Source: an uncultured Fretibacterium sp. (lineage in GTDB: Bacteria; Synergistota; Synergistia; Synergistales; Aminobacteriaceae). From it: a stretch of 64,000 nt of DNA. The stretch covers positions 1-64,000 of the forward strand of contig CAMGZM010000004.1 of assembly GCA_946183145.1 (NCBI GenBank), in the 5' to 3' direction. Below, piece after piece: positions 59,849-62,144 of the stretch (positions are counted from its first letter, which is position 1; each line of letters begins with the position of its first letter). The translations under genes were made by a program, and so were the position numbers. The notes under the pieces are model-generated. The model ran no database searches and was not told the DNA's origin. It saw only the letters and a program-made list of their open reading frames with translations.

Positions 59849-60589
59849 TTGCGTGTTGTAGGAATAATTCCTGCGCGCTATGGTTCAACGAGGCTTCCGG
59901 GAAAACCGCTTAGGCTTATTCTTGGCCGGCCTATGCTCCAATGGGTTTATGAACGCACACGTTCGGTTAAGAAACTCGATGTGATATATACTGCTACCGA
60001 TGATGAAAGGATAAAGGCTGTATGTGATGAGCTGAATATCCCCGTTATAATGACTTCAGACAAGCACAGGACAGCCGCAAACCGCCTTGCAGAAGCTGCT
60101 AAGACAATAAGTGCTGATTTCTACGTGCAGATTAACGGAGACGAGCCGTTGATAGAACCACGCGCAATTGAGGCCGCAATACCTGACTATATACCGCAGG
60201 ATAAAGAGTTCGGAACGAATGTTATAACTGAAATGACAGATCCTGTACAGGTTATAGATACTTCAAACATAAAGATGGTTTTTGACTGCGGCATGAATGC
60301 TCTTTACATGTCCCGTGCCCCGGTTCCTTATCCGTTCAAGTCTCTTAACTTCAAATACTATAAGCATGTCGGCATAATCGGCTATAACAAAAAAATGCTG
60401 GATTTCTACGCTGACTCCCAGCCCGGCCGCTTTGAGCTTATCGAGGGAATTGACACGCTGAGATTCATTGACTACGGGAAACAATTGAAACTCTCAATAG
60501 TTGAAAACTGCAGATGCCTGTCAGTTGATACTGAGAAAGATTTAGAGATAATAACGCAAATAATGAAAGAGGAAAATAATGTACATTAA
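59849..60589 (+). CDS. CMP-ulosonate (KdsB-like) cytidylyltransferase
   Basis: A 246-residue nucleotidyltransferase activating a 2-keto-3-deoxy sugar acid with CTP. It has the KdsB N-terminus IIPARYGSTRLPGKPLRLILGRPMLQWVYERT, then DVIYTATDDERI, a Mg site YVQINGDEPLI and YMSRAPVPYPFK...KHVGIIGYNKKMLDFY. Kdo is the usual substrate, but the next gene is an aldolase overlapping by 11 bases and no other Kdo gene is near, so a different ulosonic acid is possible. TTG start behind AAGGGGGAA. Confidence 0.88.
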   Translation: MRVVGIIPARYGSTRLPGKPLRLILGRPMLQWVYERTRSVKKLDVIYTATDDERIKAVCDELNIPVIMTSDKHRTAANRLAEAAKTISADFYVQINGDEPLIEPRAIEAAIPDYIPQDKEFGTNVITEMTDPVQVIDTSNIKMVFDCGMNALYMSRAPVPYPFKSLNFKYYKHVGIIGYNKKMLDFYADSQPGRFELIEGIDTLRFIDYGKQLKLSIVENCRCLSVDTEKDLEIITQIMKEENNVH

Positions 60590-62144
60590 AGATTTGAAGC
60601 TCCTCGACTGCACACTCAGGGACGGAGGCTACATTAACGACTGGAAATGGGGACGGAATACAGCAGGCAACATAATTCGCTCACTGGTGAAAGCAAAAAT
60701 CGACATTGTAGAAGCGGGCTTCCTCCGCAATACTGAAGGCTATAATCCTGATATTACAGTCTGCAATACCATTGAGGAACTCAACAGCCTTGTACCTGCT
60801 TATACCGGGCATACTATGTTTTCTGCAATGGCCATGAGAAGCAACTACGACATAAGCAAGCTGACACCTTACAGCGGAAATGGTATCGAAATGATACGCA
60901 TTACAGCTCATGATTACGATATTGCAGAAGGCTTTGTATTTGCGCGTGAAGTAAAGGAAAGAGGCTACAAACTCAGTATTAACCCAATAAACATAATGGG
61001 ATATTCAGACCGTGAAATCTTATGGATAATCGACCAGACAAACAGCATACAGCCTTATCAGTTTTCAGTTGTCGATACTTTCGGGAGCATGAAGCGGAAA
61101 GATCTCCTGCGTATTGTCTCGGCTGTTGATCATAATCTTGACCCGAATATACGTCTGGCTCTTCACTTGCACGAAAATATGTCGCTCAGTTATTCCCTTG
61201 CTCAGGACTTCATAGAGTTTCACCTTAACCGCCCTATTACCATAGATGCCAGCCTTATGGGTATTGGACGGACTCCCGGTAATCTTCCCGTTGAACTTAT
61301 TGCTGACTACCTGAATGACAATGAGGGGAAATCATACGATATTGATTACATGATGGATGCCATAGATGATTACATCACTCCCATGAGAGGCCAAGCAAAC
61401 TGGGGTTACTCGCCTTCATATTTTCTTTCAGCCCGTTTCAACCTTCACAGGAATTACGCCGAATACTACCTTAAAAAGGGAGACCTGACTCACAGGGACA
61501 TCAATCACATTCTTGCGGGTTTCGACCGCTCAAAATGCACAGCCTTTGACTCTGAGTATGCTGACATGCTTTATGAGCAGTACAAGAACAACAGCATTGA
61601 CGACACGCAGAGCCGCGAAAGCCTGAAACGTGAGCTTCACGGAAAAGATATTCTGCTTATTGCCCCCGGCGCGAGCATAACGGATCATGAGGACGAAATA
61701 AGGCAGTACATAGAGCTTCACAGGCCGGTGGTAATATCCGTTAATTTTGTTACGGACAAATTCCGCGCTGACTATTCATTTTTCGGAAACAACAGGCGTT
61801 TTGACTATAATGACAGCTTCCCGGGAAAAGTCATAGCCACGTCAAATTTGCCTGAGCGGAAAGTCGATTACAGGATTGACTACAACAGCCTGACAGGGGA
61901 TTTCAGTTACAGCTCAAGCAGTGTGATTATGGCATTGAAACTTTTGCGTGATATGGGCGTAAATAGTATCGCTGTTGCTGGTGCTGACGGCTATAAAGAA
62001 GGTGTAAAAAGCTATTATGACAGCAGCATGAGGCGTTATTCCGGGGAAGACAGCAAAATTAACGCTGCATTCGTGAAAGCTGTGAAAAGTCTCGGAATCA
62101 ATATAGAGTTTATTACGCCGTCAATTTACGCGGAAATGCTGTAG
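60579..62144 (+). CDS. DRE-TIM aldolase fused to a Rossmann-like C-terminal domain
   Basis: A 521-residue two-domain protein. Residues 1-300 form a DRE-TIM (HMGL-like) aldolase barrel: D10-CTLRDG, and the metal HxH at H196/H198 in LALHLHENMSLS; nearest are 4-hydroxy-2-oxovalerate aldolase-like enzymes found in glycan clusters. From about 348 a second domain starts KDILLIAPGASITDHEDEIRQYI, then VVISVNFV, ADYSFFGNNRRF and SIAVAGADGYKEG, resembling the Rossmann folds of DUF115/MAF and CMP-sugar sialyltransferases. Coupled to a CMP-sugar synthetase gene, it could make and possibly transfer a 2-oxo acid sugar. The fusion and its role are inferred. Confidence 0.75.
   Translation: MYIKDLKLLDCTLRDGGYINDWKWGRNTAGNIIRSLVKAKIDIVEAGFLRNTEGYNPDITVCNTIEELNSLVPAYTGHTMFSAMAMRSNYDISKLTPYSGNGIEMIRITAHDYDIAEGFVFAREVKERGYKLSINPINIMGYSDREILWIIDQTNSIQPYQFSVVDTFGSMKRKDLLRIVSAVDHNLDPNIRLALHLHENMSLSYSLAQDFIEFHLNRPITIDASLMGIGRTPGNLPVELIADYLNDNEGKSYDIDYMMDAIDDYITPMRGQANWGYSPSYFLSARFNLHRNYAEYYLKKGDLTHRDINHILAGFDRSKCTAFDSEYADMLYEQYKNNSIDDTQSRESLKRELHGKDILLIAPGASITDHEDEIRQYIELHRPVVISVNFVTDKFRADYSFFGNNRRFDYNDSFPGKVIATSNLPERKVDYRIDYNSLTGDFSYSSSSVIMALKLLRDMGVNSIAVAGADGYKEGVKSYYDSSMRRYSGEDSKINAAFVKAVKSLGINIEFITPSIYAEML

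Follow-up and report, generated by a model that had tools for sequence, protein, structure and literature searches.

The gene pair and its surroundings

The window, by which we mean the whole stretch of 64,000 nucleotides analysed here from an uncultured Fretibacterium sp., carries on its forward strand two genes in close succession. The first encodes a KdsB-type CMP-ulosonate synthetase and the second (60579-62144, +, ATG start) a protein of 521 aa, in which an aldolase is fused to a Rossmann-like domain. The features are the following:

59849-60589, +: KdsB-type CMP-ulosonate synthetase, 246 aa, TTG start, with AAGGGGGA on its 5' side (PF02348, NF003952)
60579-60589, +: overlap of the two genes, 11 bases (ORF coordinates)
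60579-61589, +: HMGL/DRE-TIM metal-dependent aldolase domain plus helical linker, residues 1-337 (PF00682; 3dxi and DmpG 1nvm by profile and fold)
60618-60623, +: R14-D15, equivalent to DmpG R17-D18, the enolate-stabilising Arg and the metal-ligand Asp (profile alignment to 1nvm)
61164-61172, +: H196-L-H198, metal site, equivalent to DmpG H200/H202 (profile alignment to 1nvm)
61590-62144, +: C-terminal Rossmann-like domain with a DUF115/MptE/SteA/sialyltransferase-like fold, residues 338-521 (AF2, Foldseek, hhalign)
61977-61991, +: A467-G-x-D-G471 motif of the C-terminal domain (column counts)

The ORF coordinates confirm the 11-base overlap between the KdsB-type gene and the 521-residue fusion that the first-pass annotation had described, and this overlap suggests that the two genes are translationally coupled. 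The preceding gene stops 173 bases 5' of the pair and the gene on the 3' side (metK, identified by eye) lies on the opposite strand, so the two genes form an isolated unit. No HAD phosphatase gene adjoins the pair, and no PEP-dependent synthase (KdsA or NeuB) is present at the window locus. A promoter and terminator scan gave no more signals than were found in shuffled sequences, and a DNA match in E. coli was not found. Spread by phages or plasmids was considered and rejected: there is one short phage match, and among 15 plasmid records no single place covers 80% of the query.

The aldolase domain

Pfam places the HMGL-like family PF00682 at residues 6-247 with 50.8 bits against a cut-off of 29, and AlphaFold2 predicts a TIM barrel (pLDDT 92) that Foldseek matches to 3dxi and 1nvm. 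The LLDCTLRDGG motif (residues 8-17) and the HLH motif (residues 196-198), from which a DRE-TIM aldolase had originally been recognised, include R14, D15, H196 and H198, all of them invariant in 51 homologues. In the profile alignment to 1nvm these residues fall on R17, D18, H200 and H202 of DmpG, which bind the metal and the pyruvate enolate. By cut-off, fold and metal-site residues the protein is an HMGL-like/DRE-TIM metallolyase.

The nearest solved relatives are a putative aldolase of Bacteroides vulgatus (BVU_2661, PDB 3dxi) and then the 4-hydroxy-2-oxovalerate aldolases such as DmpG. 3dxi is the closest solved sequence both in a single-sequence search (E 2.6e-22) and in a profile search (E 1.9e-49); the entry is titled as the N-terminal domain of a putative aldolase, and the solved chain comprises the aldolase part only. 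With DmpG, which acts together with DmpF, the window protein shares the TIM barrel, the Arg-Asp pair and HxH metal site, a profile match at E 3.9e-26 and a Rossmann-type partner. The two differ in several respects: the protein scores 57.9 bits with TIGR03217, the 4-hydroxy-2-oxovalerate aldolase equivalog, where the cut-off is 286, the domain joined to the aldolase is no aldehyde dehydrogenase, and the genomic context is of the capsule type rather than that of aromatic degradation. In addition, the catalytic His21 of DmpG is replaced by Tyr18 (a tyrosine in about 82% of homologues), so the exact chemistry may differ from that of DmpG.

It could be asked whether the donor is pyruvate at all. 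The DRE-TIM group includes Claisen synthases (IPMS, homocitrate synthase) that the window aldolase weakly matches, and the loss of His21, together with a second, TPP-linked genomic context, would also fit a donor other than pyruvate, either a different 2-oxo acid or an acyl-CoA, and a product that is not an ordinary ulosonate. We consider this unlikely, as 3dxi and the HOA aldolases come out best in both the profile and the fold comparison, and partners of the KdsB/NeuA type, like the KdsC-type phosphatase described below, belong to ulosonate chemistry.

The CMP-synthetase partner

The assignment of the upstream gene to the KdsB-type cytidylyltransferases holds, since the protein matches PF02348 with E 2.6e-45 (155 bits) and KdsB models are its best matches. 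It passes the KdsB subfamily model NF003952 (225.9 bits, cut-off 193) and is slightly below the KdsB equivalog TIGR00466 (149.6 bits, cut-off 155.2). It has IDTLR where Kdo enzymes have LEQLR, a motif present in 4/4 solved KdsB sequences compared, and retains the positions of the catalytic core. The same pattern is seen in the other KdsB-type enzymes paired with aldolases: R15, K19, R78, D100, K143, R157 and D235 (E. coli numbering) are present in 39 out of 39, the LEQLR glutamine Q211 in none of the 39, Q98 in 13 and H181 in 24. Judging from these residues, the CTP/Mg core is retained while what is presumed to be the sugar pocket has drifted; the paired synthetases are therefore probably not Kdo enzymes, and different aldolase/synthetase pairs may make different sugars. 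Kdo itself is an unlikely product of the pair, as its signature is missing from the paired enzymes and the host has its own kdsA-kdsD-kdsB operon.

Copies in the host and in a genome of the same genus

The host genome contains three aldolase fusions, one in the window (contig C4) and two on contigs C8 and C3 that are 38-39% identical to it. Each has a CMP-synthetase directly upstream, of KdsB type on C4 and of NeuA/PseF type on C3 and C8. The synthetase of the C8 copy (L007 8401-9158) is split over two frames, the N-terminus lying in one and the remainder in the other, which may mean that the C8 copy is inactive or mis-assembled. True CMP-ulosonate synthetase genes (PF02348) number five in the host, three of which are those beside the aldolase fusions. 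The other two are kdsB, in the kdsA-kdsD-kdsB operon on C7, and pseF, near pseI on C10, where both PseF and PseI score above their equivalog cut-offs. All five synthetases are thus accounted for, each lying near a potential ulosonate-forming enzyme, which in three cases is the aldolase. No KdsC above cut-off was found in the host genome.

The C10 genes belong to a pseudaminic acid operon (L133 3123-9895), whose members other than PseF and PseI were named by appearance, and any nonulosonate on the flagellin of the host would probably come from this operon. Nothing was found in favour of the suggestion in the first-pass annotation that the window pair might serve flagellin: fliR/flhB, flagellar genes identified by eye, lie about 8 kb from the pair, and pseudaminic acid has its separate operon.

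A second genome of the same genus (G048) has five aldolase copies with eight adjoining CMP-synthetases, one KdsA and no NeuB, and the orthologs of the window pair also adjoin metK there. Two or three different synthetases in tandem beside a single aldolase fusion occur twice in this genome, as KdsB-KdsB-NeuA (L040 4929-7274) and as KdsB-KdsB (L042 1077-2596). A protein family with a GVDS PP-loop-like motif (by eye), which has no clear Pfam match, is found in L007 (5569-8380), L048 (188-1402), L050, L078 and L090; L007 has two copies of it, partly broken.

Conserved pairing of the aldolase with CMP-synthetases

The neighbourhood survey covered the best 80 loci by similarity to the window protein, drawn from 84,980 species, a choice that favours close kin. 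The loci come from Bacillota, Verrucomicrobiota, Spirochaetota, Fusobacteriota, cyanobacterial relatives, Campylobacterota, Bacteroidota, Pseudomonadota and one archaeon. A CMP-synthetase lies at most 100 bp upstream of the aldolase in 54 of the 80 loci and somewhere in the locus in 62, so the pairing first noticed in the window is a conserved one, present in many bacteria of the gut and of the environment. Given the three host copies and the several phyla, it is beyond chance. In a tree of 86 aldolase fusions the partner has switched between the KdsB and the NeuA type at least 14 times, and a NeuA/PseF-type synthetase adjoins the aldolase in 24 of the 86 loci. The repeated recruitment of two kinds of synthetase would be hard to explain unless the reactions of the two enzymes were linked.

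The next commonest neighbour is a HAD phosphatase of KdsC or Gph type (43/80 loci); the KdsC-type members resemble KDN-9-phosphatase and KdsC models most closely. In 32 of the 80 loci there are genes for polysialyltransferase-like (PF07388) or DUF115-like proteins. Outside the 80-locus survey, a polysaccharide locus on a Leisingera plasmid has the order aldolase, KdsB, HAD hydrolase; this aldolase is 25% identical to that of the window and also carries the C-terminal domain. As a separate observation, large HAD-domain proteins (650-900 aa) lie next to polysialyltransferase-like proteins in the capsule loci L063, L065, L066, L075, L085, L104, L107 and L108.

Of the 44 genomes that carry the pair, a strong NeuB is present in 21 and a KdsA above cut-off in 6 (one has both), while 18 have neither. 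In this count, weak NeuB matches at 1e-6 to 1e-13 were presumed to be DAHP synthases, in support of which the same places match the KDO8P model below cut-off. In all 18 NeuB-/KdsA-less genomes a clear PF02348 gene directly adjoins the fusion, and most of them have no other clear PF02348 gene (one has three pairs). Since most carriers are draft MAGs this absence is soft, although 4 of the 18 are isolate drafts, namely Proteocatella sphenisci, two Paenibacillus and Flavonifractor An82.

These genomes also bear on the opposite reading of the pair, in which the aldolase would cleave a 2-keto-3-deoxy acid and the CMP-synthetase would be a salvage or an unrelated enzyme. HOA-type aldolases such as DmpG work in the cleavage direction, and a 2-keto-3-deoxygluconate (KDG)-type kinase adjoins four of the fusions. 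A degradative role is, however, improbable: the neighbours are capsule and exopolysaccharide genes with no catabolic genes among them, and in the 18 genomes the synthetase would be left with no other known source of an ulosonate.

The C-terminal domain

Residues 338-521 are modelled confidently by AlphaFold2 (pLDDT 94.1), and Pfam gives nothing above cut-off for this region. According to Foldseek, the best solved neighbours are SteA (9hmz), an archaeal HPPK (MptE, 8sd5, E 5.6e-4) and human ST8SiaIII with bound CMP-3F-Neu5Ac (5bo9, prob 1.00, E 1e-3, TM 0.49), all three at a TM near 0.5. The profile of the domain aligns with DUF115/MptE-like neighbour proteins at 95% and E 2.5e-8 in hhalign. 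Structure prediction, Foldseek and hhalign thus agree on the DUF115-like fold that had been proposed from the sequence, and the likeness to sialyltransferases that had been proposed with it is probable. At the level of Pfam models the similarity is faint: PF01973 (DUF115/MptE-like) is weakly matched by 21 of 82 members (best E 3e-4), the window protein scoring 12 bits against a gathering score of 34.6, and the CST-I model is weakly matched by 2 of 82. A match of some members to D-lyxose isomerase (PF07385, best 3.9e-5) is partial, covering 74 residues, and was treated as chance.

R407, G468, D470, G471 and T513 are invariant in 82 out of 82 members. No alignment column contains 12 or more histidines among the 82 homologues, and the catalytic base of the GT42 and GT29 families is a histidine. 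Taken together, the domain shares with DUF115/MptE-like proteins and SteA, and probably with GT42 and GT29, the fold class and a PGxS/GPSL-like loop, and differs from them in being below the Pfam cut-off, in lacking a conserved histidine and in being fused to an aldolase.

The first-pass annotation had read the locus as three steps in two genes, with the aldolase making an ulosonate, KdsB activating it and the fused CST-like domain transferring it. Its first part, a pyruvate-type aldolase coupled to CMP-ulosonate activation, is supported by the pairing counts given above (54/80 and 62/80), and neither of the two outcomes that were to count against it, rare pairing with a cytidylyltransferase or a C-terminal domain of some other fold, was observed. 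Its last part is not supported. The transferase step would be in line with the fold match to ST8SiaIII bound to a CMP-sugar analogue, with the weak CST-I and MptE sequence matches and with the homology to DUF115 neighbours. However, the domain is matched at least equally well by SteA and MptE, neither of which is a glycosyltransferase, and separate transferases of the CMP-sugar type are already encoded in 32 of the 80 loci. Moreover, 5 of the 11 genomes of the TPP class (see below) have no clear CMP-ulosonate synthetase, and the domain and its invariant residues are nonetheless present. The complete three-step scheme is therefore unlikely, and in view of the missing histidine and these five genomes a role of the domain as a general CMP-sugar transferase is not supported.

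The presence of the domain in both classes of loci implies a role common to both, which favours handling of the aldolase substrate or product over handling of a CMP-sugar. We tentatively speculate, at rather less than even odds, that its role is not that of a glycosyltransferase but the binding of a phosphate- or nucleotide-bearing substrate of the aldolase, which it would deliver or channel. It is not essential for the pairing, because the aldolase-only relatives in L041, L043 and L046 keep their CMP-synthetase. In G048 the fusion orthologous to that of the window (L039 8511-10071) is interrupted by a frameshift within this domain, its aldolase domain being intact. The conserved domain is a defined target for future studies on the role of an aldolase-fused DUF115-like fold.

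A proposed pathway and its relation to known systems

We propose that the two genes specify the central part of an alternative route to CMP-ulosonates for glycans of the cell surface, in which the aldolase replaces KdsA and NeuB, and we give this reading a probability of roughly two in three. The direction of synthesis, pyruvate as the donor, the aldehyde and the product are what we infer. In the first step, as the family chemistry and the active-site residues would have it, a metal-bound pyruvate enolate would add to an aldose or aldose phosphate to give a 4-hydroxy-2-oxo acid, namely a 3-deoxy-2-ulosonate or its phosphate. The acceptor is probably a sugar phosphate, because the homologues usually have a gene for a HAD phosphatase of KdsC or Gph type beside them. 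This neighbour would then dephosphorylate the ulosonate phosphate; for the window copy the phosphatase would need to be unlinked. Thirdly, the KdsB/NeuA-type partner would, by analogy with its family, move CMP onto the ulosonate, and finally the CMP sugar would be used by separate polysialyltransferase-like or DUF115-like enzymes.

It is instructive to compare this scheme with the Kdo pathway (KdsA-KdsC-KdsB). Both have a synthetase of the KdsB family, a KdsC-type phosphatase (beside the homologues) and the same logic, in which an ulosonate is formed, dephosphorylated and linked to CMP. The differences are that the window locus has an HMGL-type aldolase instead of KdsA, that the paired synthetases lack LEQLR, and that the host has a separate and complete Kdo set. 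The NeuB/NeuA and PseI/PseF systems are similar in as much as NeuA/PseF-type synthetases stand beside the aldolase and polysialyltransferase-like and DUF115-like proteins are nearby, but the fusion loci have no NeuB partner and the pseudaminic acid operon of the host is elsewhere. CMP-ulosonate biosynthesis itself is already known, so the novelty would lie in a different enzyme forming the C-C bond.

A description of the aldolase/CMP-synthetase pairing or of BVU_2661 was not found in the open literature, most subscription papers lying outside the search. The public annotation of such a protein reads 'aldolase catalytic domain-containing protein'. Genome surveys for sialic-acid-like and Kdo-like sugars that are keyed to NeuB or KdsA would overlook these loci entirely. 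If the proposal is true, many gut Bacillota and other bacteria make CMP-activated ulosonic acids that have been overlooked, and a family of uncharacterised aldolases becomes testable in an assay with two proteins. The HAD phosphatase, the three host copies, the CDP-sugar/TPP context and the Kdo and pseudaminic acid operons elsewhere in the host are observations that go beyond the first-pass annotation.

A second context with TPP enzymes and CDP-sugar genes

The aldolase product can apparently have another fate, since 18 of the 80 loci have no CMP-synthetase; instead, 13 of these have a TPP enzyme and 9 have RfbH. An acetolactate-synthase-type TPP enzyme, often with RfbH and CDP-glucose genes, is encoded in L100, L109, L114, L115, L116, L118, L120, L121 and L123. 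L100 has RfbF and RfbG as well, which amounts to a CDP-3,6-dideoxyhexose pathway. The plasmid locus L131 belongs to this context as well, its TPP enzyme being of the transketolase type.

The composition of these loci suggests that they make branched CDP-sugars from an aldolase product. We speculate that the TPP enzyme might decarboxylate the 4-hydroxy-2-oxo acid and move the resulting acyl group onto a CDP-4-ketosugar, in the way that YerE, an acetolactate-synthase-like enzyme, uses pyruvate in yersiniose synthesis. In its widest form the proposal would be a widespread, multi-copy third route to CMP-ulosonic acids, yielding a family of novel 3-deoxy-2-ulosonates in Gram-positive and Gram-negative bacteria. 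The aldolase product would also feed a TPP enzyme for branched CDP-sugars, and the C-terminal domain would be a novel module for catalysis or for handling the substrate; we regard this extended version as possible, with a chance somewhat below one half.

In L045 (3473-9910, from the same-genus genome G075), L077 and L115 the fusion is accompanied by a TPP enzyme, by a 3-dehydroquinate-synthase-like protein and, in some of them, by an SDR. It is possible that these clusters represent a route to a carbocyclic sugar.
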